Shown: positions 47,858 to 64,000 of the stretch, one piece after another
Position numbering within the stretch: position 1 is the first letter of the stretch
How the letters are laid out: every line of letters starts with the position of its first letter
The notes under the pieces: generated by a model
Told to the model about the DNA's origin: nothing
The model's input: only the letters and a program-made list of their open reading frames with translations
Database searches by the model: none
Position numbers and translations under genes: made by a program
From: Fidelibacterota bacterium
GTDB lineage: Bacteria > Fidelibacterota > Marinisomatia > Marinisomatales > UBA1611
NCBI GenBank assembly: GCA_018658715.1
Contig: JABHUQ010000111.1
Location: 1-64,000, forward strand
Direction: 5' to 3'
DNA: 64,000 nucleotides

Positions 47858-49579
47858 ATGACGACAAATTTCAATCCACAATTCTCAAAAATAGGAGAAA
47901 TATTAATTCATTTAGGTAAAGTGAATGAATCGCAAGTTAATGAAGCTTTAGCTCAACAAAAAGGGAGTCAGGAAAAAATTGGACAAACGTTGATTGACTT
48001 AAATTTTATTGAAGAAGATGATTTCGCGTCTGCATTTGCACTTCAACTGGGTGCAAAAAAGGCTGATAATTTTCTATTACTTGAAGCAGATGCTACGGTG
48101 GCTGCTTTAATTCCAGAAGATTTTGCTCGCACAAATCGAGTGTTAGCTGTTAGCCAGAATCAATCTATGATTGTTGTAGCTATGGAAGATCCAGAAGATT
48201 TAGTTACAATCGATTCTATCAAACGATTAACAAACTTAAATCCTGAACCATTAGTTGCAGGCTCATCGTTACTCGAAAAAGCGTTAGATAAAGTTTATGG
48301 TGATATTCAGAAAACTGCAGAAGTCAGCCAAACCATTGATGATATAAAAATCGTTTCTGGCGATGAAGGTTCTCAAGAAGTTGTGGATTTATCTCCAGAT
48401 AATGCTTCGGAAGAAGATGCGCCTATTGTCAAATTGGTGAATTTGATTTTTAAGGAAGCCATTAAAGAGCGGGCAACGGATATTCACGTGGAGCCACAAG
48501 AAAAAAAGGTAATTATTCGAATTCGGATTGATGGCGTATTGCAAACTATTATGACTCCACCATCAACGTCACTGAGTGGATTAGTAACAAGGATTAAAAT
48601 TTTATCAAAATTGAATATTGCTGAAAAGAGATTACCACAAGATGGGCGTTTCTCCATTAAATCAACAACAAAAGATATTGATGTTCGTGTTTCTATTTTG
48701 CCAACTGTTTATGGTGAAAAAATAGTTATGCGATTATTAGATAAAACTGGTTTTGACTTTAACCTTACATCTCTTGGATTTCCTTCTGAAAACTTAAAAA
48801 TCTTTAAGAAAATTATTAGTCAGCCATATGGAATGGTCGTTGTCTCTGGTCCAACTGGATCTGGTAAATCAACATCTTTATATGCTGCATTAAAAGAGAT
48901 TAAAAGTGATACAACCAACATAACAACAGTTGAAGATCCAGTTGAATATCAATTAGATGGTGTAAACCAAGTTCAAGTTTTTGAAGATATTGGATTAACG
49001 TTTGGTTCTACATTACGATCAATTCTTAGGCAGGATCCGGATGTATTACTCATTGGTGAAATTCGAGATGGAGAAACAGCGGATATTGCTGTAAAATTTT
49101 CACTCACAGGTCACCTTGTATTTTCAACCGTTCATGCTAATGATGCGGCTGGTACTATAACTCGATTACTCGATATTGGGATTCAACCCTTCTTAGTAGG
49201 ATCGTGTTTAAATATGGTTATGGCGCAAAGATTGGTAAGGCGTATTTGTAGTAATTGTAAGGAAGAATACACTCCAACCGCGGAAGAGCTTGCGTTGTTA
49301 GATTTAGAAGCATCAAAAGTATCTGGACCTTTATATCATGGAAAAGGGTGTGCTGATTGTCGAAATACTGGATATCATGGACGAATTGCAATTTTCGAAA
49401 TGATTCCTATGGGAAAAAATATTCGAAAGCTTGTTTTTGAAAATGCTAACGAAGATGAAATTAGGCAATGTGCTTTAGATGCAGGAATGGTGACATTAAG
49501 AGATAGTGGTGTTCGTCGTGTTTTAGATGGGACAACAACCATTGAAGAGATATTACGCTCAACTGTAGAGGACTTTTAA
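47858..49579 (+). CDS. pilB: Type IV pilus assembly ATPase PilB (GspE family)
   Basis: A 573-aa extension ATPase. The N-terminal MshEN-type domains (LIHLGKVNESQVNEALAQQK) are followed by the ATPase core: Walker A VVVSGPTGSGKSTSLY, Asp box ITTVEDPVEYQL, Walker B DPDVLLIGEIRDGETA and His box HLVFSTVHAND. The zinc-binding tetra-Cys is CSNCKEEYTP with GCADCRNTGY. It powers pilus polymerisation and works with the PilC platform encoded next. Confidence 0.94.
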   Translation: MTTNFNPQFSKIGEILIHLGKVNESQVNEALAQQKGSQEKIGQTLIDLNFIEEDDFASAFALQLGAKKADNFLLLEADATVAALIPEDFARTNRVLAVSQNQSMIVVAMEDPEDLVTIDSIKRLTNLNPEPLVAGSSLLEKALDKVYGDIQKTAEVSQTIDDIKIVSGDEGSQEVVDLSPDNASEEDAPIVKLVNLIFKEAIKERATDIHVEPQEKKVIIRIRIDGVLQTIMTPPSTSLSGLVTRIKILSKLNIAEKRLPQDGRFSIKSTTKDIDVRVSILPTVYGEKIVMRLLDKTGFDFNLTSLGFPSENLKIFKKIISQPYGMVVVSGPTGSGKSTSLYAALKEIKSDTTNITTVEDPVEYQLDGVNQVQVFEDIGLTFGSTLRSILRQDPDVLLIGEIRDGETADIAVKFSLTGHLVFSTVHANDAAGTITRLLDIGIQPFLVGSCLNMVMAQRLVRRICSNCKEEYTPTAEELALLDLEASKVSGPLYHGKGCADCRNTGYHGRIAIFEMIPMGKNIRKLVFENANEDEIRQCALDAGMVTLRDSGVRRVLDGTTTIEEILRSTVEDF

Positions 49580-50826
49580 TGGCCATTTTTCAATATCTAA
49601 CAAAGGATGGTGATGGTAACCGAAAAGAAGGTGAAATCCATGCCGACTCCTTAGATATTGCTGCTCAAAAATTATCAAGCGGTGGCATGATTGTTGTCAA
49701 TTTAAAAGAAGTGGATACAACATGGGATTTCCTTGGCCCTTTCTTAGATGAAGTTTCATTATCTATTGAGCGGTTCAAAAATCGTATTCCATTGAGTAAT
49801 ATTGTTTTTTTTACACGACAATTGTCAACAATGTTTTCTGCCGGCTTAACTATTGAACGGGCTATTCAAGGACTTGCACTTGAAGAAAAACATAAAAAAT
49901 TCAAAAAAGTATTGACAAATGTTGGTGGAAATATTCGCAAAGGGCTTAATCTTTCAGAATCATTGGAAAAACATCCAGGTGTATTCTCAAATTTATTTGT
50001 GGCTTTAACTAAGGCAGGTGAAGTCAGTGGTAACTTGAATGATATTTTAGATCAATTAGCCACTTATTTAGAAAATCTCGACGATACAAGAAGAAAAGTT
50101 CGTTCTGCCATGAATTATCCTATTTTTATGGTTATTTTTCTTGCAAGCATGATTGGCGCAATGTTTGTATTCATAATCCCTAAATTTTCTGAAGTTTATG
50201 AACAATTGGGTGCTGGTTTACCGGGAGCGACGAGAGCGCTTGTAAATTTAAGTGATTGGATCAGTGTCCATTTTTACGGTATGTCTATGATTTTGATCAT
50301 GATTATTATAGGATTGTGGCTAGTATCAAAAACAAAAAAAGGAGGCTATGTATTTGATTCAATATTTTTAAAACTTCCCGTTTTTGGTCCATTAATTGAT
50401 CAATCTATTTTGAACAAATTTTGCAAAACATTTGGCATTTTATTGGGAGCGGGGGTTCCAGTATTAGATACAATGGCTTTATTAAAGAAGGTAGTAAATA
50501 ATAGAGTGTATGAGAAAGCCATTGAAGATTCTGCTAATTATATTCGAGATGGGTACAATATTTCAACAGCCTTAAGAAGAACAGAAGTGTTCCCATCAAT
50601 TTTACTTCAATTATCTTCAACAGGAGAAGAAACAGGTGAATTAGACTCTCTTCTTGATAGAGCCGCAGATTATTATTATAAACAAGTGAATGCACTTGTG
50701 GACAGAATGACATCATTAATTGAACCAATTCTAATCTTGGCCGTTGGTGCTGTCATTGCATTAATGGTTGTTATTACATATTTGCCTGTATTCTATTTGG
50801 GCTCAGCATTGCAAACAGGATTATAA
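49579..50826 (+). CDS. pilC: Inner-membrane pilus platform protein PilC (GspF family)
   Basis: A 415-aa polytopic protein with two T2SSF repeats: NIVFFTRQLSTMFSAGLTIE (first) and NKFCKTFGILLGAGVPVLDT (second). Membrane helices include YPIFMVIFLASMIGAMFVFI and the terminal LILAVGAVIALMVVITYLPV. It starts at the last base of pilB and ends at the first base of the peptidase gene. Confidence 0.93.
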   Translation: MAIFQYLTKDGDGNRKEGEIHADSLDIAAQKLSSGGMIVVNLKEVDTTWDFLGPFLDEVSLSIERFKNRIPLSNIVFFTRQLSTMFSAGLTIERAIQGLALEEKHKKFKKVLTNVGGNIRKGLNLSESLEKHPGVFSNLFVALTKAGEVSGNLNDILDQLATYLENLDDTRRKVRSAMNYPIFMVIFLASMIGAMFVFIIPKFSEVYEQLGAGLPGATRALVNLSDWISVHFYGMSMILIMIIIGLWLVSKTKKGGYVFDSIFLKLPVFGPLIDQSILNKFCKTFGILLGAGVPVLDTMALLKKVVNNRVYEKAIEDSANYIRDGYNISTALRRTEVFPSILLQLSSTGEETGELDSLLDRAADYYYKQVNALVDRMTSLIEPILILAVGAVIALMVVITYLPVFYLGSALQTGL

Positions 50827-51476
50827 TGGAAAATATTTTCATATTCATTCCTGTAATACTTGGTGTAATGGCTGCAAATACAATGAAATATTTATTTGCC
50901 TTTTTTGATGTAGCTGAACCGAAAGCTATATCACATATTCCAATTTATGAATTATCGTTAGGGCTTTTATGGGCTTGGGCATTTGTTGAACTTCCAATGA
51001 TTGAAGCATTTATTTTCTCATTGATTACACTGTTAATAACCGCAATTGGATGGATTGATTTAAAATCATTCAAAATTCCATTTCTATTAATTATAACTTC
51101 AAGTTTAATTTTAATTGGATCAATCTTTTTAGACCAAATCCAAGCTACACCAGCATTTTTGGGTTTAAGTATTGGAGGAATAATCCCTTGGGCTATTATG
51201 GTAACTACGTCCATATTTACTAAAAGAAAAGGCATGGGAACTGGAGATTTTCAACTAGGAATTATTCTTGGAATATGGCTTGGTCCTGTTCGAATGGCAC
51301 TTACATTATTTATGGCAAGTTTTTTCAGTCTATTAATGTGGGCCTATATATCAATGTCCTTGGGTATTGATAAAGATCGTGCTTTGCCATTTGCCCCTTT
51401 TCTAGTTTTCGCAGCCATAGATATTTATATAGCAAGTTATTATTATCCAAAATTTTTCCATCATTTAATGATTTAA
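50826..51476 (+). CDS. pilD: Prepilin peptidase (A24 family, short form)
   Basis: A 216-aa membrane aspartyl protease. The two catalytic Asp motifs are GWIDLKSFKIP (first Asp) and GMGTGDFQLGIIL (GxGD, second). About six helices are seen. The usual N-terminal methyltransferase domain with Cys-pair zinc site is absent or much reduced, so N-methylation of pilins may be lacking or done elsewhere. It cleaves the prepilins encoded in the same operon. Confidence 0.85.
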   Translation: MENIFIFIPVILGVMAANTMKYLFAFFDVAEPKAISHIPIYELSLGLLWAWAFVELPMIEAFIFSLITLLITAIGWIDLKSFKIPFLLIITSSLILIGSIFLDQIQATPAFLGLSIGGIIPWAIMVTTSIFTKRKGMGTGDFQLGIILGIWLGPVRMALTLFMASFFSLLMWAYISMSLGIDKDRALPFAPFLVFAAIDIYIASYYYPKFFHHLMI

Positions 51477-51489
51477 TAGAGAGGACTTA

Positions 51490-54400
51490 ATGAAACACAT
51501 ATTATTAATAATTAGCATCTTTTTTGTCGCTATTAGTTCAGCTACAGATATACCAACTTCAAAAATTGATGATGGCTTTTCCTTTTTAGGGATTCAAAAT
51601 GGAAAGCAAACAATTGGATTTGAAAATATTAATTATTCTCTAAAAACAATTGAACATTCCGGCACAGTATATCAAAAACCAGAATTATTATCTGCTGGAT
51701 CTGTTGTGGATGAAGGTGAACCATATTTACCTTCAGTAACAACCTATTATGCTGTCGAACCTGGAAAAACTTTTGAAGCCCAGATTGAAATATTAGAATC
51801 TGAGATCATTGAAAATGTTAATGTTATTCCATTCCATGGCTGGGAAAAAGATTCATTTGACCCAGAAATACCGTTAGCTCGAAATTCATCACTTTATTCT
51901 GACAATCAACTTTTCCCAAACAATATTGTGCAAGTTTCAGAACCGATCGTCATGAGAGAATTAACGATGGTAAAGGTGACTATAACTCCATTTCAATACA
52001 ATCCAGTTACACAAGAATTAAAAGTCATCCAAGAAGCAAATATTACAATGGATTCAGAAGGAACAACGGATGCTGGTTTTCGTCCGTTAACACGTTCTCG
52101 TGCTTTTGAACCACTTTATAAATCAATGGTTGTGAATTATGAAGATTATAGCCGTGATGATGTGCCCTATCAACGTCCGTCTATATTATATGTTATTCCA
52201 TCCAATATTGGAAGTTTAATGTCTACTATAGAACTATTGATGGACTGGAAACATCGATTAGGCTATGAAGTGAATTATGTATCAAGTACAAGTGTTGTAA
52301 ATAATTCTACTAATTTAAAAAACTACATTGAAGACGCCTATGAAACGTGGGACAATCCACCTGAATTTGTAACGTTCTTTGGGGATGCTAGTGGTACATA
52401 TGATATTCCAACTTATTACGAAAATTGGAGTGGATATAATGGAGAGGGGGATCATCCCTATTCACAACTAGAAGGATCAGATATATTCCCTGAAGTATTC
52501 TTGGGAAGAATGTCTTTTTCAACCCAATCACATTTAAATACAATAGTTGGTAAAATATTAAATTATGAAGCATCCCCTTATATGGGAGAAGATTGGTTTA
52601 CAAGAGCCTGTTTAGTCGGGGATCCTTCAACTTCTGGAATTTCTTGTGTCATAACGAATGAAAATATTAACTCAATATTAGATATTAATGGCTACACAGA
52701 TGTAAATACAATTTATAGTGGATCCTTTCCATCACAAATGGTTAGTGGCATCAATGAAGGTGTTTCCTTCTTCAATTATCGGGGATATTATGGTGTAAGT
52801 GGATTCACAAGTTCAAATGTGAATAGTACATCAAACGGATTTATGCTCCCTGTAGCGACAGTAATAACATGTGGGACGGGTTCTTTTGGTGGCGATTCTA
52901 TTGCTGAATCATTTTTGCGTGCAGGAACTGCTACAAATCCTAAAGGAGCAGTAGCTAGTATTGGAACGGCTACTACTGGAACACACACCATGTTTAATAA
53001 TATAGTTAACATGGGCTTTTATTATGGGACATTTATTGATGATATTGAAACAGCTGGGGCAGCTTTAATGCAAGGTAAACTTTATTTAGCAAAAGGTTAT
53101 CCATCTAATCCAAATAATTATGTGTCTATTTTTACACATTGGAACAGTTTAATGGGAGATGCTTCACTCCAAATGTGGACTGAATTTCCAAGTACATTTA
53201 ATGTGGAATATGAAAGTTGGGTTATGTCCGGGACAAATTATATGGACATTCATGTAGCTTCAGGACCTGTTTCTGTAAGTGATGCATGGGTTACCATATT
53301 AAGAGATGGTGATATTTTTGAATCAGGTTATACTGACCAATCTGGAAATGTAACGCTCGATATACCTTCATCTGATGATGGTGAAGTTTTAATTACAGTG
53401 TCGAAGAAAAACCACGTACCATACCAAGGATCTTTCCAAATTTATGACCCAGGTGTGAGTGTATACATTGTAGAAGATTATGTAACCTATAATGATGACA
53501 ATGTTGGTCAATCTTCTGGGAATAATGACGGATTAATAAATGGGGGCGAAACGATTGAACTTTATATTCCTTTTAAGAATTATGGTACCGAAGATGGAAC
53601 AGAATTAAGTATATCACTTTCGACTGATAATTCTCATGTTGTTATCATGAATTCTGATTTATTGATTGGAGATTTAGACGCACAGCAAATGGTAATTCCA
53701 GAAACACCATTTGTTCTATCCATAGAGAGTGGTGTTCCTGAAGGCATGAATATTCCAATTATAGTGAATATTTCAGATAATAGTGGTGGTGCTTGGCAGG
53801 GAATGGTGAATCTTGAAACGCGTGGAAATAATATAACAGCTCATATTATTAATGTTCTAGGAAATAATGATAATGTATTAGAATCTGGGCAATCATCTCA
53901 AATTGAAATAATATTAGCTAACAATGGGTCAACAAATGCTACATCATTAACAGGAACAATGATAAGTCCTTCACCAATGATAGATATTGTAGATAATGAA
54001 GGTTCTTGGCCTTTGATTGGAGCAGGATCCGTTGGATCAAATTCATCCAATACATTTGAAATAGCCGTTTTAGAAGGAACAATCCCAGGGACCATCGTCC
54101 ATTTAATTATAAACCTAGAATCTAGCGATGGGTACGAAACAAATATTGTTGTTCCAGTTCAAATTGGAATGCCAACTGTATTCGATCCTTTAGGCCCAGA
54201 TGATTATGGTTATTACATTTATGATAGTGGTGATGCTTTATATAATCTGGCACCTTATTATTCTTGGGTGGAGATAGATGATCGTCAAGGTGGGCCTGGC
54301 TTTCATCTTAACTCATTAACAGATTCAGGCAACAATGGTGATGATGTTGAAACGGTTACTCTTCCATTTTCTTTTAAATTTTATGGACTATCTTATGATG

Positions 54401-55080
54401 AAATAAGTATTTGTAGTAATGGTTGGATTGCAATGGGTGAATCAACATTAGAATCTTTTCGGAATTATGAATTGCCAGGTCCTGCAGGACCATCTCCTAT
54501 GATAGCAGGATTTTGGGATGATTTACAATTGACGAATGGCGGTCGAGTTTATACGTATTATGATCAAGCAAATCATCAATATATTGTTCAATGGTCCCAA
54601 GTAAGAACATATCAAAATAATTCTACGAATACATTTCAAATTATTTTGAGAGATCCTGCATATTATTTTGGTCCCACTGGGGATGGGGAAATATTAATTC
54701 AATACAAAGAATTTAATAATACATCCTATGGTAGCTATGGCTGGGGACAAACACATGGTAATTATGCAACAGTTGGAATTGAGGATCATACAATGACGGT
54801 AGGATTAACCTATACATGGAATGATACTTATCCTACAGCATCCATGGAATTGGGTGATGAAACAGCCATTCTTATTACCACGCGTGGAAGTGAAGTTCGC
54901 ATGTTTGGAGATTTGAATATGGATGAAGTCATTAATCTTTTTGACATTCTTGGTCTGGTAGATTATATCTTAGGCAGTGGCGCACCAATAAATCCATATC
55001 TTGGCGATATTAATCAAGATGGTATGATAAATGTATTAGATATGCTTGGCCTAGTTCAAATTGTAATGGGGTGGCGATAA
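51490..55080 (+). CDS. Gingipain-like (C25-type) secreted protein with dockerin end; catalytic His replaced
   Basis: A 1196-aa exported protein: signal peptide (HILLIISIFFVAISSA), a gingipain propeptide-like domain (PYLPSVTTYYAVEPGKTFEA), and a C25-like caspase-fold domain (PSILYVIPSNIGSLMSTIEL, PEFVTFFGDASGTYDIPTYY, FPEVFLGRMSF). The catalytic Cys position is kept (VITCGTGSFGGD, Cys461). In the usual YxGHG His motif the sequence reads FNYRGYYG, with Tyr433 in the His place, so activity is doubtful. A beta-sandwich shared with the M6 protein follows, and the C-terminus is a two-repeat type I dockerin (GDLNMDEVINLFDILGLVDY; GDINQDGMINVLDMLGLVQI). It ends the pilus operon, 13 nt after the peptidase gene. 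Confidence 0.8.
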   Translation: MKHILLIISIFFVAISSATDIPTSKIDDGFSFLGIQNGKQTIGFENINYSLKTIEHSGTVYQKPELLSAGSVVDEGEPYLPSVTTYYAVEPGKTFEAQIEILESEIIENVNVIPFHGWEKDSFDPEIPLARNSSLYSDNQLFPNNIVQVSEPIVMRELTMVKVTITPFQYNPVTQELKVIQEANITMDSEGTTDAGFRPLTRSRAFEPLYKSMVVNYEDYSRDDVPYQRPSILYVIPSNIGSLMSTIELLMDWKHRLGYEVNYVSSTSVVNNSTNLKNYIEDAYETWDNPPEFVTFFGDASGTYDIPTYYENWSGYNGEGDHPYSQLEGSDIFPEVFLGRMSFSTQSHLNTIVGKILNYEASPYMGEDWFTRACLVGDPSTSGISCVITNENINSILDINGYTDVNTIYSGSFPSQMVSGINEGVSFFNYRGYYGVSGFTSSNVNSTSNGFMLPVATVITCGTGSFGGDSIAESFLRAGTATNPKGAVASIGTATTGTHTMFNNIVNMGFYYGTFIDDIETAGAALMQGKLYLAKGYPSNPNNYVSIFTHWNSLMGDASLQMWTEFPSTFNVEYESWVMSGTNYMDIHVASGPVSVSDAWVTILRDGDIFESGYTDQSGNVTLDIPSSDDGEVLITVSKKNHVPYQGSFQIYDPGVSVYIVEDYVTYNDDNVGQSSGNNDGLINGGETIELYIPFKNYGTEDGTELSISLSTDNSHVVIMNSDLLIGDLDAQQMVIPETPFVLSIESGVPEGMNIPIIVNISDNSGGAWQGMVNLETRGNNITAHIINVLGNNDNVLESGQSSQIEIILANNGSTNATSLTGTMISPSPMIDIVDNEGSWPLIGAGSVGSNSSNTFEIAVLEGTIPGTIVHLIINLESSDGYETNIVVPVQIGMPTVFDPLGPDDYGYYIYDSGDALYNLAPYYSWVEIDDRQGGPGFHLNSLTDSGNNGDDVETVTLPFSFKFYGLSYDEISICSNGWIAMGESTLESFRNYELPGPAGPSPMIAGFWDDLQLTNGGRVYTYYDQANHQYIVQWSQVRTYQNNSTNTFQIILRDPAYYFGPTGDGEILIQYKEFNNTSYGSYGWGQTHGNYATVGIEDHTMTVGLTYTWNDTYPTASMELGDETAILITTRGSEVRMFGDLNMDEVINLFDILGLVDYILGSGAPINPYLGDINQDGMINVLDMLGLVQIVMGWR

Positions 55081-55100: not shown

Positions 55101-56282
55101 ATGACAGCTTTTCCCTTAATCATACTTGGATTTTTATTACTCTTCTTGTTAGGGGCGGGTGTATTAGAGTTCCAACTTCATCAGCGTGTTCTTGCTACGA
55201 TTCCATTACGAATTCACGTAAATGGAACTCGGGGAAAATCTAGTGTAACGCGTCTAATAGCGGCTGGATTAAGAGCAGGCGGTTTACGCACATTTGCAAA
55301 AACAACTGGAACAGCGCCTCGTGTAATAGACATGGAAGGGAAAGATAGAATCATTCATCGACTTAGGTTACCATCCATAGGCGAACAGGTAAGGTTAATG
55401 TCTTTTTTCTCAAAAGAAAAACCAGATGCAATGGTGATGGAATGCATGGCAGTACAACCACAATATCAATGGATAGCAGAGCACCAAATGATTCAATCAC
55501 AAATTGGCGTTATTACAAACACTCGACCAGATCATCTGGAAGAAATGGGACCAACAGAAAAGGATGTTGCATTGTCTCTATGTAATACAATTCCAGAAAA
55601 TGGAAGCTTAATTACAGGGGAAGTTGAAAAATATTCTATCTTAAAAGATGTGGCTGCTTCTCTAGATACATCTTGCATATTATCCAACGAATCCACCGTT
55701 TCTGAAGATGAATTAAATGCCTTTAATTATTTAGAACATCCACAGAATGTAGCCGTTGCTTTAGATGTATGTGATGCCGTGGGTATTGATAGAAATGTTG
55801 CTTTAAGTGGGATGCAAAATGTGCAACCTGATTTAGGTGCATTGGTCGTTTGGAAATGTGGTTTTGATAATAAAACAATTTCATTTGTAAATGGAATGGC
55901 TGCCAATGACCCTGTTTCAACTTTACAAATTTGGAAATTTATAATTGATCGATATCCTGCTAAAGGTGGAACATGTGTTTTACTGAATTCGCGTGAAGAT
56001 CGACCTGTACGAACACGGCAAATGATAGAATTAACACTTGAAGAAATAAAACCAGATCATTTTATAGTCAGAGGGAATAAAGTAGACTCATTATTAGATC
56101 GTTTGCATCATCATTCGCCCTTGACTCAATTTCATACTATTGGATTAGATCAACCGACCCAAAAAACAATTGAAATGATAAAAACTTTAACAAATGATTC
56201 ATTGGTATATGCCATTGGGAATCAAGTGGGTGCTGGACAGGAAATTTTAAACCAATTAAACATGGTAAGAGTAAATGGTTGA
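55101..56282 (+). CDS. pgsB: Poly-gamma-glutamate synthase ligase subunit PgsB/CapB
   Basis: A 393-aa Mur-ligase-like amide ligase with an N-terminal membrane helix (PLIILGFLLLFLLGAGVLEF). The ATP site is RIHVNGTRGKSSVTRLIAAG, followed by CMAVQPQYQWIAEHQMIQSQ and GVITNTRPDHLEEMGPTEKD, typical of CapB/PgsB. It activates glutamate chains with ATP and adds further glutamates by gamma-peptide bonds. The stop overlaps the pgsC start by 8 nt. Confidence 0.9.
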   Translation: MTAFPLIILGFLLLFLLGAGVLEFQLHQRVLATIPLRIHVNGTRGKSSVTRLIAAGLRAGGLRTFAKTTGTAPRVIDMEGKDRIIHRLRLPSIGEQVRLMSFFSKEKPDAMVMECMAVQPQYQWIAEHQMIQSQIGVITNTRPDHLEEMGPTEKDVALSLCNTIPENGSLITGEVEKYSILKDVAASLDTSCILSNESTVSEDELNAFNYLEHPQNVAVALDVCDAVGIDRNVALSGMQNVQPDLGALVVWKCGFDNKTISFVNGMAANDPVSTLQIWKFIIDRYPAKGGTCVLLNSREDRPVRTRQMIELTLEEIKPDHFIVRGNKVDSLLDRLHHHSPLTQFHTIGLDQPTQKTIEMIKTLTNDSLVYAIGNQVGAGQEILNQLNMVRVNG

Positions 56283-56718
56283 AGTGTCAATTGGTTTAGG
56301 GATTGTTCTTAGTCTAATATTATCAGAATCGTTAGGTGTTACTGCAGGAGGCATTATTGTTCCTGGGTATATATCACTTTATTTGCATCAGCCGTTACAA
56401 GTTTTAATTACATTTGTAGTGGCAGCGATTGTATATGGAATTATTCATTTATTGAGTAAAGTTATGTTCCTATATGGAAAAAGACGATTGGTATTAGCAT
56501 TAATTCTTGGCTTTTTCCTGGGGTATATATCGAGGCATTATATTTATTCGCCATTTGATAATTTATCTTTTGCTGTGATTGGTAATATTATTCCAGGTCT
56601 CATAGCAAATTGGATGGATCGTCAAGGTGTTGTTCGAACATTATCAGTGGTTATTGTAACGGCAGTACTTGTAAAACTATTGGTTATGATTATATTTGGA
56701 GGACAACTCGTTGTCTAA
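56275..56718 (+). CDS. pgsC: Poly-gamma-glutamate synthase membrane subunit PgsC/CapC
   Basis: A 147-aa membrane protein with four to five helices and the CapC-type opening IGLGIVLSLILSESLGVTAG, then GIIVPGYISLYLHQPLQVLI. PgsC forms the membrane part of the synthase with PgsB. It overlaps both neighbours. A GGAGG within its last codons serves as ribosome site for the next gene. Confidence 0.9.
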   Translation: MVEVSIGLGIVLSLILSESLGVTAGGIIVPGYISLYLHQPLQVLITFVVAAIVYGIIHLLSKVMFLYGKRRLVLALILGFFLGYISRHYIYSPFDNLSFAVIGNIIPGLIANWMDRQGVVRTLSVVIVTAVLVKLLVMIIFGGQLVV

Positions 56719-57862
56719 TTATAAAAAACAACCCTTTATTCCAATGATTCAGAAAACATCTACTTTAGTAGGGCTAGCAGTATTAAGTATTGCATGTTTT
56801 ACATTTTCAGTCAACAATAAAGTAATTGATGTTTCTCCTACATATGATTTAAAAGTAAAAGCAGCTCAATTAATGAAAAAGGGCATGGAAGAACTCAAAC
56901 AAGCTCGAATGGAAAAAAGTATATTTGTTGATTTAGAGAATGACCCAAATGAAACAGGGTTGGTTGGGAGTCCATTTAGCTTAATAACGACTGATGAAGG
57001 TGATTTAGACGCAAAGCTTACGACTCTGGATCCTAACTTTTCTGCTGCATTAGTTGAACTTTATTATCGCGCAGGTCTCAAATCAGGTGATACTGTTGCT
57101 GTCTTACTAACAGGGTCAATGCCTGGTGGTAATATAGCTGCCCTAACTGCATGCAAAACGATGGGAATAACACCTGTAACAATAACATCTGTCGGTGCAT
57201 CTCAATGGGGAGCTAATCATGAAGATTTTACATGGCTCGATATGGAAAATATTCTTTTTCAAAAAAGTATTATTTCAAATAGAAGTATAGCTGCTTCTAT
57301 TGGAGGTAGGAATGATTTGGGACGATTATTGAGTCCTAAAGGTCGTGATCTTATTCGTAAAAATATTGCTGACCATGAATTGCCCATTATTCATTATAAT
57401 CGTTTAAAAAATAATATTCAGGAACGGCTCAAACAATTCTCATCAATATTGCCTATTAAGTCGTATGATGCATTTATTAATGTTGGGGGTGGAGTTGCAA
57501 GTTTAGGAACATCTTTTAACCATAAGTTGCTCCCTCCGGGTGTAATTCTTCGGAATCATATAACTGACATTACACGTCCAGGTGGTATTGAGGGTGTGTT
57601 ATCTCATTTTGCAAAACAGAATGTACCTGTTGTTCATATTTTAAACATTAAATCGCTCACGGAATCGTTAAACCTTCCATTTGCACCAATACCAATTCCT
57701 GATATCGGTTCAGGCAAATTATATGCTAATGAGACATATAATCTCATTATTACCTTTTTAGCATTTATGGTTGTTGCAGGTGCTGTAGTAGGAGTTGGAT
57801 TTCATAGTAAGAAAAGAATTAAGGAACACTTATTACAACATGAACCAGATAGTTTATTATAG
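56711..57862 (+). CDS. pgsW: Poly-gamma-glutamate system protein (PgsW-like)
   Basis: About 383 aa with an N-terminal helix (LVGLAVLSIACFTFSVNNKV), a long periplasmic domain and a C-terminal helix (NLIITFLAFMVVAGAVVGVG). Conserved-looking blocks are LKSGDTVAVLLTGSMPGGNI, TITSVGASQWGANHEDFTW and DAFINVGGGVASLGTSF. It matches my memory of the family named poly-gamma-glutamate system protein, found beside pgsB/pgsC in Gram-negatives. TTG 56711 is chosen (GGAGG 8 nt upstream) over TTG 56696. No PgsA/CapA gene is present, so this protein may take its place in polymer handling. Confidence 0.8.
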   Translation: MSNYKKQPFIPMIQKTSTLVGLAVLSIACFTFSVNNKVIDVSPTYDLKVKAAQLMKKGMEELKQARMEKSIFVDLENDPNETGLVGSPFSLITTDEGDLDAKLTTLDPNFSAALVELYYRAGLKSGDTVAVLLTGSMPGGNIAALTACKTMGITPVTITSVGASQWGANHEDFTWLDMENILFQKSIISNRSIAASIGGRNDLGRLLSPKGRDLIRKNIADHELPIIHYNRLKNNIQERLKQFSSILPIKSYDAFINVGGGVASLGTSFNHKLLPPGVILRNHITDITRPGGIEGVLSHFAKQNVPVVHILNIKSLTESLNLPFAPIPIPDIGSGKLYANETYNLIITFLAFMVVAGAVVGVGFHSKKRIKEHLLQHEPDSLL

Positions 57863-58721
57863 AAAAATTCTTATAACCATTTTAGGTATTATTTTTGTAG
57901 GTACCTTAGATGCCACATTGTTGAAACCTTCGGAGAATGGTGAAAAGAAAGAAATACTCATAATTAATAAAAAAAGACGTCTGTATTATCCTGTGCAAAA
58001 TGAAGGATTAGTTTACTCGGTCTCGGGTCCAATTCGGCTAGAGTTTATTTCTCGATATCCTATTCTTAAAAAAAATAAAAAAAGTCATCCATTCCAATAC
58101 AAAATTGTTGTGAATAAACAGGATACTATTCAGGTAAAACATCGATATAAAATTCAAAAAAGGATTAAATCGGTTCAACACCCAAAGCACTATTACTCAT
58201 ATTCTGGGAATTATTTCATAAATATTCCAAAGGGTGAACATCATATTCAAGTTCTTCCATCAGGCAAATCAAAATATCCCGTTCTCTCTCGTGTATTAGC
58301 AAAAGATTTTGAAAAGGTTGGGAAAGAAAAGCGAATTATAATGCCAATGGTACATCAATCAGCTATTCCATTAAAAATCCAAGGGAAAAAAATGGATTAT
58401 TATGAATGTTCACAGAAATTGCCACTTCAGATTGAATCTAATGGCCCTAAGTCGATTAAAATATTAAGTCGACTTTCATTTAATGAATTAATGGGACAAG
58501 AATCTTCATATAGGGTTCGAATTAAAAGTGGTCAAAAAGTAGTTGGAACATTCTATTTTAACACTGAGCGATCATCTGAAACAACCATACCTGACCATCC
58601 TGAATGGGTACCAGGAAAATGGAGATCCTGTGAAATTAAGGTCCCAAAGGGTAAACATGTTTATACTATTAAAATTTTAGATGTAAACAAATCTATTTTG
58701 GCACGTTTTATTGAGTATTAA
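57840..58721 (+). CDS. Very basic exported protein downstream of pgs genes
   Basis: About 293 aa. One N-terminal hydrophobic signal (RKILITILGIIFVGTLDATL) precedes a beta-rich protein unusually full of Lys and Arg (KKNKKSHPFQYKIV, VKHRYKIQKRIKSVQHPK, GKHVYTIKILDVNKS). No family recognised. Given that the three genes before it make an anionic polyglutamate chain, a periplasmic polymer-binding role is an attractive but unproven idea. ATG 57840 lies within the end of pgsW and starts nearest the signal; the frame is open from 57795. TAAATG joins it to the next gene. Confidence 0.7.
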   Translation: MNQIVYYRKILITILGIIFVGTLDATLLKPSENGEKKEILIINKKRRLYYPVQNEGLVYSVSGPIRLEFISRYPILKKNKKSHPFQYKIVVNKQDTIQVKHRYKIQKRIKSVQHPKHYYSYSGNYFINIPKGEHHIQVLPSGKSKYPVLSRVLAKDFEKVGKEKRIIMPMVHQSAIPLKIQGKKMDYYECSQKLPLQIESNGPKSIKILSRLSFNELMGQESSYRVRIKSGQKVVGTFYFNTERSSETTIPDHPEWVPGKWRSCEIKVPKGKHVYTIKILDVNKSILARFIEY

Positions 58722-59741
58722 ATGAACAGGTTCTTATTATTTGTAGTATTGGCCTCTACATTGGGTGCTAGTACGCCACTTTATATGACTTTTGGATTGG
58801 AAAATGGCTATGACTCCAATGTATTAAGATTGTCTGAACTTGAAAAAGGGGAAGCTGCACATTACTTAGACATGTTAGGCGGTATGGAAACATTTGATTC
58901 CCACATACTTAAAGGATCTATTCAAGGGAAAAAAGAATATTATATTCGTGGTAGAGTTCTTGCATTTTCGGGCTCGTTTGGGTTAACAAATTATTCCCAT
59001 TCTACACACAAGCAATATAATTCTCATCGTTTACTAGTTTCTTATAAATTAGGGTCATATAAAAAAATTGATTATTTGATTAACCATTTAGATCAATACT
59101 ATTTAAGGCATTATATAGATAGGGATATTTCTTCTACACTTTTAAATGCTGCTGCCTTTACAGATAGAAACCAAAGAATTGGATTTTCATATCCATTATT
59201 AAAGCGTACATGGTTAAATATATGGGGCGGATATTTACAGAGATATTATAACAATCCATTTACAGAATTTGATTTAGATATATATTATGGAAAGATAAAA
59301 ATAAATCGATCAATTCGAAAATTTGGTACGGTTGGAATTCAATTTGAACAGGGTAGAGCTGTAAATAAAACTTTTGGAGAAACGGCTGTAGCAAGTGATT
59401 TTGACAGGAGTTATAATTATTATCAATTCTATATCCCTATTAGCAAAACAAAACGGAACCGTTGGACAGATGGAGTTGGATTTTCAACAAGGGCGGATAT
59501 TCGTACCTATGATGCTGAAAATTTGAGTGATCCATTACATGCAGGGAGAAATCATTTAGATTTGAAACTAGATGTTTGGGCGAAAAAAAATATTACAGAA
59601 TGGATTACGTTAAAGTCTACTCTTCGTTATCGATCACGAAGTACCAAGTCTCAATTTGAGTGGGTAGAATCTCTCAAGAGTTTTAGTCAATGGCAACTAG
59701 CGTGCAAATTAGAATGGAATATGATTTATGATAAATATTAA
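58722..59741 (+). CDS. Predicted outer-membrane beta-barrel protein downstream of pgs genes
   Basis: A 339-aa exported protein (signal RFLLFVVLASTLGAS). It is rich in alternating aromatic strands (LYMTFGLENGYDSNVLRLSE, RTWLNIWGGYLQRYYNN, YNYYQFYIPISKTKRNRWTD, ITLKSTLRYRSRSTKSQFEW) typical of outer-membrane barrels of the surface-lipoprotein-assembly or porin kind. No family is certain. The direct stop-start junction with the basic protein suggests the two act together, perhaps moving polyglutamate across the outer membrane. That is inference. Confidence 0.65.
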   Translation: MNRFLLFVVLASTLGASTPLYMTFGLENGYDSNVLRLSELEKGEAAHYLDMLGGMETFDSHILKGSIQGKKEYYIRGRVLAFSGSFGLTNYSHSTHKQYNSHRLLVSYKLGSYKKIDYLINHLDQYYLRHYIDRDISSTLLNAAAFTDRNQRIGFSYPLLKRTWLNIWGGYLQRYYNNPFTEFDLDIYYGKIKINRSIRKFGTVGIQFEQGRAVNKTFGETAVASDFDRSYNYYQFYIPISKTKRNRWTDGVGFSTRADIRTYDAENLSDPLHAGRNHLDLKLDVWAKKNITEWITLKSTLRYRSRSTKSQFEWVESLKSFSQWQLACKLEWNMIYDKY

Positions 59742-60747
59742 TAAAAAGTTATTAATAGGGTTTATAGGATTCATCTTTTTATCAGGGTGTATGGAGCCCA
59801 AAACAGAATTGTTATGGGATGTAGAAACATATACCGTAATAGAGACAAATGGATTTTGTCGCTTTGTGGATATTCACAATGATACCGCTTTTGTTGCTGC
59901 GGGACAGGCAGGGGTTCAAATTTGGGATTTGAATTCTGTCACAAAAATTATTGGCTTAGATCAATATTCGGCTTCACAGGATTTAAGTGATATTGCGCAA
60001 ATAGAATATGCACCGACGATAAAAAAAATATTTGCACTTGAAAATAATAGCCGAGTGGTTATTATGGATTTGATTCATGGTGATTCCCTTGCTGTTCTAG
60101 GTGAAGAAATGAGTGAAAAAACACGAGAAATCCGCATTTTAGAAGGGAGTGATTCTTATATCATTTTAGCTGCTGATAATGATGATGGATTAAAGTGGAA
60201 TAAGTTTGATTTTTTTGCTGATTGGGGAATATGGTCCAATGTGGCGGGTACTGAATTATCCACACCAGGCAAACCTATGGGGTTGGACTATTTAAATGGG
60301 AATATTGCATTAGCAGTAGACCAACAAGGCATAGAACTTTGGACATTAGATTCTTTAGGTGCCGACCCTGTATTTGTAAATAGACTAGATACACCGGGAA
60401 ATGCTGAAAAAGTAACATTGACAGAAACAGGTGTTTTTGTAGCCTGTGATGATGCAGGAGCCAGGTATATTCCATTGGATATTTTGTATTTACCTGTACA
60501 AGATAATTTATATATTGAAAAGCAATTTGCTGAAGATTTAACTGTGGACCACATTGCAGTTTCTGGAGATAAAGCTGTTTTGTCCGTCGGAGGAAAGGGA
60601 ATTGCACTATACGATATTTCTAATCCTGGAAGTCCTGAACCGCGAGGAATATTTGATGTGGGATATACGTATTATTCCACTTTTTGGGAAGAGAAGTTAG
60701 TCGTATGTACAAGAGAAGGGCTTGTTGTACTTAATATTATTCAATAA
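59728..60747 (+). CDS. Beta-propeller (LVIVD-type) lipoprotein
   Basis: A 339-aa protein with lipoprotein signal (GFIGFIFLSGC). Repeated units of about 45 residues follow, with patterns such as VDIHNDTAFVAAGQAGVQIW, LDYLNGNIALAVDQQGIELW and IAVSGDKAVLSVGGKGIALY. These are like LVIVD repeats, which fold as a propeller on the cell surface. Function unknown. Its start overlaps the end of the barrel gene by 14 nt. Confidence 0.75.
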   Translation: MININKKLLIGFIGFIFLSGCMEPKTELLWDVETYTVIETNGFCRFVDIHNDTAFVAAGQAGVQIWDLNSVTKIIGLDQYSASQDLSDIAQIEYAPTIKKIFALENNSRVVIMDLIHGDSLAVLGEEMSEKTREIRILEGSDSYIILAADNDDGLKWNKFDFFADWGIWSNVAGTELSTPGKPMGLDYLNGNIALAVDQQGIELWTLDSLGADPVFVNRLDTPGNAEKVTLTETGVFVACDDAGARYIPLDILYLPVQDNLYIEKQFAEDLTVDHIAVSGDKAVLSVGGKGIALYDISNPGSPEPRGIFDVGYTYYSTFWEEKLVVCTREGLVVLNIIQ

Positions 60748-63772: not shown

Positions 63773-64000
63773 ATGAATATCATACGCTCTTTAGGATGGA
63801 TAATTATCTTTCTGTTTTCAACAGTTATTAGTCAGGAACTTGATTCTCGATACCATACGTTAGAAGAAATCTATGAAGCTATTTATGCCATAGATGAAGA
63901 TTCAAATACAGATTATTTTTTTAGGATTGATACAATTGGGTTCTCGACGCTTGAGAACATTCCAATTCTAGCTGTAAAAATCTCCAATAATGTAAATGTG
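63773..64000 (+). CDS. N-terminal part of an M14-type zinc carboxypeptidase (cut by window edge)
   Basis: The first 76 residues are visible. They comprise a signal peptide (IRSLGWIIIFLFSTVISQ) and then SRYHTLEEIYEAIYAIDEDS and RIDTIGFSTLENIPILAVKI, as at the start of M14 carboxypeptidase domains (YHT-EEI ... GxSxxxxPIxAVKIS). The zinc ligands HxxE lie beyond the edge. It starts 3 nt after the preceding stop, so it continues the secreted-protein run. Confidence 0.7.
   Translation, partial: MNIIRSLGWIIIFLFSTVISQELDSRYHTLEEIYEAIYAIDEDSNTDYFFRIDTIGFSTLENIPILAVKISNNVNV

Follow-up and report, generated by a model that had tools for sequence, protein, structure and literature searches.

The 64,000-nucleotide stretch analyzed here (the window; positions 1 to 64,000 of the forward strand of contig JABHUQ010000111.1) from a bacterium of the phylum Marinimicrobia (Fidelibacterota) carries an apparent ten-gene operon, C25a–pgsB–pgsC–pgsW–P4–BAR–P6–P7–M14–C25b, in which the genes of a poly-γ-glutamate (PGA) synthase are followed directly by those of an exported basic protein (P4) and a predicted outer-membrane β-barrel (BAR). 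The operon is, in our judgment, probably a diderm system for PGA, or for a closely related γ-glutamyl polyanion, that has its own envelope-crossing and surface module. At the inner membrane, PgsB and PgsC would polymerize glutamate, and PgsW would stand in for PgsA/CapA; the basic tandem β-sandwich protein P4 would take up the polyanion in the periplasm; and the 14-stranded BAR, with its conserved lumen-facing arginines, would conduct the polymer across the outer membrane, perhaps assisted by the lipoprotein P6. At the cell surface, M14 may process the polymer, and the C25 proteins, P7, and P6 may hold or organize it. The gene families, the folds predicted for their products, and the association across phyla are established; the identity of the polymer, its binding by P4, and its passage through BAR we infer.

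PgsB, PgsC, and PgsW all score above the curated NCBIfam cut-offs, those for PgsB and PgsC being equivalog cut-offs. PgsB carries a Mur ligase domain (PF08245), and its gene at this locus is the sole PgsB match in the genome. The three genes overlap one another, by 8 bp (pgsB/pgsC) and 23 bp (pgsC/pgsW), and no CapA or CapD homologue was found in the cluster, in agreement with an earlier note on this DNA, which had described overlapping pgsB, pgsC, and pgsW-like genes without PgsA/CapA or CapD. In the whole genome, the CapA family (PF09587) is present only within a 1587-residue protein encoded on another contig, and γ-glutamyltranspeptidase (GGT) only on a third contig; the operon contains no GGT-family CapD. 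In the 1587-residue protein, which is encoded on the minus strand and unlinked to the pgs operon, PKD and dockerin domains accompany a PGA_cap domain of the CapA type. Hydropathy analysis places two hydrophobic segments in PgsW, one close to residue 21 and the other close to residue 350, and the ~300 residues in the middle of the protein are probably periplasmic; PgsW would then fill the topological place of PgsA/CapA. Judging from family membership, together with the PGA genes and staining reported for Cloacimonadota (PMC13082233), the polymer is presumed to be PGA.

The isoelectric point (pI) computed for the 293-residue P4 is 9.96, with 13% Lys and a net charge of +30, bearing out the exported, strikingly Lys-rich β-protein described previously. 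Throughout the P4 family, the median pI is 9.63, as compared with 5.92 for 826 neighboring proteins, and 64% of P4 proteins exceed a pI of 9.5, as against 9% of the background. The AlphaFold2 model of P4 (mean predicted local distance difference test score (pLDDT), 90.3; predicted template modeling score (pTM), 0.59) suggests two confident β-sandwich domains, the relative placement of which is uncertain. The top matches in the Foldseek search were tandem carbohydrate-binding modules (CBM51 and CBM22). P4 belongs to no Pfam or NCBIfam family, and is regarded as a candidate periplasmic polymer-binding protein.

BAR was modeled by AlphaFold2 as a 14-stranded barrel (pLDDT, 91.7; pTM, 0.86), consistent with the outer-membrane barrel predicted in the earlier note. 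The closest solved folds are monomeric 14-stranded channels, CymA and OmpG (template modeling (TM) score, about 0.5–0.6), with PgaA further down the list. Strand positions were assigned as facing inward or outward from strand alternation and family-averaged hydrophobicity, independently of the model coordinates. Over 60 homologues, the in-facing positions have a median net charge of +10, as compared with +0.5 on the lipid side, and the conserved Arg129, Arg261, and Arg306 are assigned as lumen-facing. BAR also has no Pfam or NCBIfam family, and in this respect no family with another clear role, which the earlier note had named as a finding that would count against it, has emerged for the barrel. 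Profiles of BAR, P4, and PgsW retrieved no credible solved relative from the PDB; their functions were therefore not taken from sequence similarity to PDB entries. Based on its fold and the charge of its lumen, BAR is a candidate outer-membrane conduit.

The association of P4 and BAR with the pgs genes extends over at least seven phyla. Of the 245 Marinimicrobia genomes scanned, 100 have PgsB (98 above the cut-off) and 94 have BAR; the two occur together in 89 (Fisher p = 1.9e-47), and 84 of the 101 BAR matches were located 3′ of pgsB on the same strand, 1.8–3.8 kb away (about 2.5 kb). Of five further BAR contigs read among the remainder, three start inside PgsW and continue with P4–BAR, one is short and has P4 before BAR, and one starts inside BAR itself; the BAR profile also detected BAR at loci that first seemed to be without it. 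Gene order within Marinimicrobia is very stable. PgsB and BAR were each present in 106 of the 125 Cloacimonadota genomes, and both in 99, with 91 of the 109 BAR matches adjacent to pgsB. (One genome counted here, that of locus L177, is titled Armatimonadetes, probably in error, as the pgs locus falls within Cloacimonadota.) Strong P4 matches were rare in the 395 Bacteroidota genomes (7 genomes, with PgsW above the cut-off in 13), and all seven P4 genes abut PgsW. The same gene order was found at loci of WOR-3, Calditrichota, Zixibacteria, and Gemmatimonadota. The earlier note had proposed P4 and BAR as candidates for binding and export of the polymer in a diderm, a proposal that would have suffered had the two genes occurred mostly apart from pgs genes. 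They are instead conserved beside pgsBC/pgsW in Marinimicrobia, Cloacimonadota, Bacteroidota, and other diderm phyla, and this linkage, together with the absence of BAR from Bacillota described below, supports the proposal, the function itself being predicted.

Bacillota with pgsBCW provide a comparison. BAR was not found anywhere in the genomes of seven such Bacillota, as would be predicted for a route across the outer membrane, and P4 was absent from their pgs loci. Where looked up, the genes that come after the Bacillota synthase genes are two-component or unrelated ones; at the pgsBCW loci of Fusibacter, Anaerotruncus, and a metagenome-assembled genome (MAG) of Clostridia, a two-component system comes next downstream, which suggests regulated polymer synthesis without CapA. 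A second, divergent type of PgsBCW, without P4 and BAR, is present in Bacteroidales, Ignavibacteria, Calditrichota, Zixibacteria, and some Marinimicrobia. One genome (G114) carries both types, and another (G232) has a second-type locus in addition to a P4–BAR contig. The second-type locus of one Marinimicrobia genome (L108) is followed by the gene of a secreted protein of the type IX secretion system (T9SS) type, whose N-formylglutamate amidohydrolase domain is related to γ-PGA hydrolases, and that of a Bacteroidales genome (L118) by a SusC/SusD pair. In a tree of PgsB, PgsC, and PgsW (midpoint root, with support from the Shimodaira–Hasegawa-like approximate likelihood ratio test (SH-aLRT) only), all loci with P4 fall into one clade, within which P4 has been lost a few times; the state changes four times in all, and loci of Spirochaetota and Myxococcota without P4 are placed at the base of the P4 side. 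Two closely related PgsBCW loci (L133 and L140), from MAGs labeled Hyphomonadaceae and Comamonadaceae, form a long branch near Bacillota, possibly because of transfer or misbinning.

The genes surrounding the synthase and the P4–BAR pair encode mainly secreted proteins. C25a or a relative adjoins pgsB, or lies a few genes off, in most Marinimicrobia loci, and C25 genes are also found beside or near pgsB in Bacteroidota, Gemmatimonadota, WOR-3, and Cloacimonadota; matches of ~40 bits at second-type loci were not counted, being taken as a shared C-terminal tail (true C25 domains score hundreds of bits). Only three genes of the C25 family are present in this genome; the operon is flanked by two of them, and the third encodes a genuine PorU with both the His and Cys motifs (NYIGHG and GTCSFG). 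In the alignment of C25a to gingipain R, the Cys motif is kept (ITCGTGSF), and NYRGYYG is found where gingipain R has NYTGHG. Both C25a and C25b, as well as many of their homologues, conserve the Cys and have the gingipain His position replaced by a conserved NYRG; the two proteins would thus be either inactive as classical peptidases or engaged in other chemistry. A role of the operon C25 proteins as the T9SS sortase was considered and rejected, since an intact PorU, in which GHG is kept, is encoded elsewhere in the genome. Across 19 homologues of the M14 carboxypeptidase, the Zn ligands (H90, E93, and H241) and the catalytic residue E318 show no variation. P7, M14, and C25b carry the T9SS sorting signal (Por_Secre_tail), that of C25b being marginal (TIGR04183, 23.1 bits versus 23; Pfam, 18.6 versus 27), and C25a ends in a dockerin domain instead. 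The genome also encodes the T9SS component SprA above the cut-off, and the Marinimicrobia with these loci are taken as diderms with a T9SS. Among the Marinimicrobia loci long enough to show it, nearly all have M14 and C25b after P7; L202 (genome G149), a stretch on the wrong side of the locus, and L213 (genome G222), which stops short of the M14 position, are left out of this count. At two Cloacimonadota-type loci (L160 and L177), P7–M14–C25b is located 5′ of pgsB; retention of the set despite this rearrangement points to functional linkage rather than a frozen order, and is the best argument that these families work together.

The positions of the ten genes are listed below. All genes from position 55101 to 60747 overlap or abut, with further overlaps of 23 bp (pgsW/P4) and 14 bp (BAR/P6) and with P4 and BAR directly abutting; gaps of 20, 10, and 3 bp separate C25a from pgsB, P6 from P7, and P7 from M14, respectively, and ~330 bp follow C25b before the next gene. 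On the basis of this spacing and the common strand, the ten genes may be read as a single transcript; promoter and terminator patterns were no commoner than expected by chance, and the window gave no match to Rfam and no tRNA. The earlier note had confined the locus to positions 55101–59741. Its five open reading frames are as described there, namely the pgs genes, P4, and BAR, but the boundary was drawn too narrowly: the run starts with C25a at 51490 and extends through P6, P7, M14, and C25b, so that the lipoprotein, the M14 carboxypeptidase, the two C25 proteins, and the T9SS-type repeat protein had been missed. The region just 5′ of C25a (49579–51476 of the window) encodes an inner-membrane protein of type IV pili and a prepilin peptidase-like protein, the genes of which are also found near the pgs loci of close relatives.

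Genes of the apparent pgs operon (positions in the window unless given for the contig)
Gene	Product	Position	Strand	Evidence and features
C25a	Secreted C25 (gingipain-family) protein	51490..55080	+	Propeptide, nidogen-like, and C-terminal dockerin domains; Pfam C25, 165 bits
pgsB	Mur-ligase-type poly-γ-glutamate synthase	55101..56282	+	TIGR04012, 414.1 bits (cut-off, 222.7)
pgsC	Membrane subunit	56275..56718	+	PF14102, 113.8 bits; TIGR04011, 119.4 bits (cut-off, 96.45)
pgsW	PgsW	56696..57862	+	TIGR04332, 300.1 bits (cut-off, 100)
P4	Exported Lys-rich protein, 293 aa	57840..58721	+	AlphaFold2, Foldseek, pI
BAR	Predicted 14-strand outer-membrane β-barrel, 339 aa	58722..59741	+	AlphaFold2, Foldseek, charge analysis
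P6	Acidic lipoprotein (LSGC lipobox)	59728..60747	+	Weak LVIVD β-propeller similarity; conserved position after BAR
P7	Large secreted repeat protein, 1003 aa	60758..63769	+	WxDxR repeats; Por_Secre_tail (T9SS C-terminal signal); conserved at the locus
M14	Zinc-carboxypeptidase with T9SS signal	63773 to contig position 66091 (past the window end at 64000)	+	PF00246, 111.7 bits
C25b	Second C25 protein	Contig 66070–69228 (beyond the window)		Overlaps the M14 gene

Several observations weigh against the operon being a PGA system in which P4 and BAR provide the route across the envelope. The chemistry, linkage, and location of the product in this organism are predicted from the genes. Diderms with the second type of PgsBCW, being without P4 and BAR, must manage by another route. 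The basicity of P4 is not universal, the pI within the family ranging from 5.2 to 10.15, and the TM-scores of its Foldseek matches are 0.2–0.3 over the two-domain model and reflect the common β-sandwich fold. The association itself has exceptions: one Marinimicrobia locus (L089, genome G174) has no P4, BAR lies away from pgsB in at least one Cloacimonadota genome (G270, a real exception), and Flavobacteria keep P4 but have a different barrel-like gene in the position of BAR. The nearest solved folds to BAR are porins (OmpG and CymA), so that diffusion or uptake is possible. Regarding the exceptions, PgsW of G174 consists of 461 residues, with BAR encoded directly after it, and the extra residues might compensate for the missing P4. 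The flavobacterial loci, which include PgsBCW–P4 loci in MAGs of Kordia and Seonamhaeicola, have downstream of P4 the gene of a small protein (with a carboxypeptidase-regulatory-like domain in L126) in addition to the barrel-like family. Profile comparison with BAR gave probabilities of 91.6% for the Kordia/Seonamhaeicola type of these barrels and 61% for the other type; a relationship to BAR is possible, though unproven.

Transport through BAR is presumed to be outward, and its porin-like fold would permit uptake as well. P4 and BAR might retain the polymer at the surface, or they might import the products of its breakdown; BAR would then be a specific porin for glutamate oligomers released by M14, and P4 their periplasmic binding protein. 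Such a role would suit the resemblance of BAR to the diffusion channels OmpG and CymA, the secreted M14 carboxypeptidase encoded in the operon, and the SusC/SusD uptake genes adjoining some second-type PgsBCW loci. It is nevertheless judged unlikely, as P4 and BAR track the PgsBCW synthase, occurring rarely or never without it in Marinimicrobia, Cloacimonadota, and Bacteroidota, and no M14 was detected within the stretch examined at several P4/BAR loci outside Marinimicrobia (e.g., L147, L169, L179, and L183).

The equivalog assignment of PgsB and PgsC to poly-γ-glutamate synthesis also bears on the nature of the product. It speaks against the idea that PgsBCW makes something else, such as a γ-glutamyl tail on a lipid, on lipopolysaccharide, or on a T9SS-secreted protein, that P4, BAR, and C25 deliver or attach. 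This idea draws on the several secreted T9SS-type proteins in the same operon, on the membership of the T9SS sortase PorU in the C25 family, and on the presence of SprA and a true PorU in the genome; however, the operon C25 proteins are without the catalytic His that PorU of the same genome keeps, and at several P4/BAR loci no C25 gene lies within the stretch examined; we consider it quite improbable. That the genes share nothing beyond an inherited neighborhood, with BAR as a general porin and P4 as an unrelated envelope protein kept near pgs by slow rearrangement, would fit the very stable gene order within Marinimicrobia. We give this little credence, since the association is seen in seven phyla or more, persists where the surrounding genes are permuted, and is accompanied by close pairing at the genome level; BAR is absent from the Bacillota pgsBCW genomes, and the few P4/BAR cases without pgsBCW in the surveys proved, where read, to be contig edges. 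The reading that we retain is thus the PGA operon equipped with a module of its own for crossing the envelope and acting at the surface. Its more specific form, a dedicated diderm machine for a γ-polypeptide in which PgsBCW, the basic periplasmic carrier P4, and the arginine-lined channel BAR act together and co-encoded T9SS-secreted proteins replace CapD as the ones that trim and hold the capsule, is put forward tentatively, as a possibility that we somewhat doubt.

To our knowledge, the route by which polyglutamate crosses the outer membrane of diderms is not settled. P4 and BAR offer two specific candidates for this step that are common to several phyla, and the question thereby becomes directly testable. 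The operon also links polymer synthesis with secreted T9SS-type proteins, including C25 proteins apparently without the catalytic histidine, which suggests that mostly uncultured marine and anaerobic bacteria process or organize the polymer at the surface with an enzyme set of their own. In the open-license papers searched, neither P4 and BAR nor the wider operon was found to be described, and the literature found on diderm PGA covers the synthesis genes only (PMC13082233). Synthesis by PgsBC and the three-gene PGA operon of Cloacimonadota are already known; the P4–BAR module and the wider operon are, in our view, new as a diderm variant.

The locus shares with the Bacillus systems PgsBCA(E) and CapBCA(D)E the PgsB and PgsC subunits, both above the NCBIfam equivalog cut-offs, but differs from them in having PgsW instead of PgsA/CapA, no CapD in the cluster, and additional genes for P4, a barrel, a lipoprotein, and secreted enzymes. 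It also differs from the CapD-anchored capsule of the Bacillus anthracis type, as GGT is encoded here only on another contig. In Cloacimonadota, a related diderm phylum, a PGA biosynthesis gene has been reported in 99% of digester genomes, and the clumps stain with PGA-DAPI (PMC13082233). The operon described there consists of three genes (CapB, CapC, and CapA/PgsF) in the typical Gram-positive layout, and the main text does not contain the term "outer membrane" (PMC13082233), whereas the Cloacimonadota genomes searched here carry P4 and BAR as well. The known γ-PGA hydrolases, such as PghP and PghL, have a carboxypeptidase-like fold, with near relatives including N-formylglutamate amidohydrolases (PMC6506827). 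This zinc carboxypeptidase-like fold is shared broadly with the operon M14, which is, unlike them, a classical M14 enzyme with a T9SS signal and an activity that is only predicted. Gingipains and PorU resemble the operon C25 proteins in being secreted and in the conserved Cys, and differ in the His of GHG, replaced by NYRG in both operon proteins. On paper, the arrangement resembles the synthase-dependent secretion of exopolysaccharides (cellulose by Bcs, alginate by Alg, and poly-N-acetylglucosamine by Pga), with an inner-membrane synthase, a periplasmic polymer-handling protein, and an outer-membrane barrel, and both PgaA and the BcsB–BcsC fusion are among the weaker fold matches. In contrast to these systems, the synthase here is a Mur-type ligase and not a glycosyltransferase, the barrel has 14 strands without detectable sequence relation, no tetratricopeptide-repeat scaffold was matched by Pfam in the cluster, and P4 is all-β. 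If the proposed route is correct, capsule export in these bacteria would differ from the Pgs/Cap systems of Gram-positive bacteria as well as from the polysaccharide exporters of Gram-negative ones.

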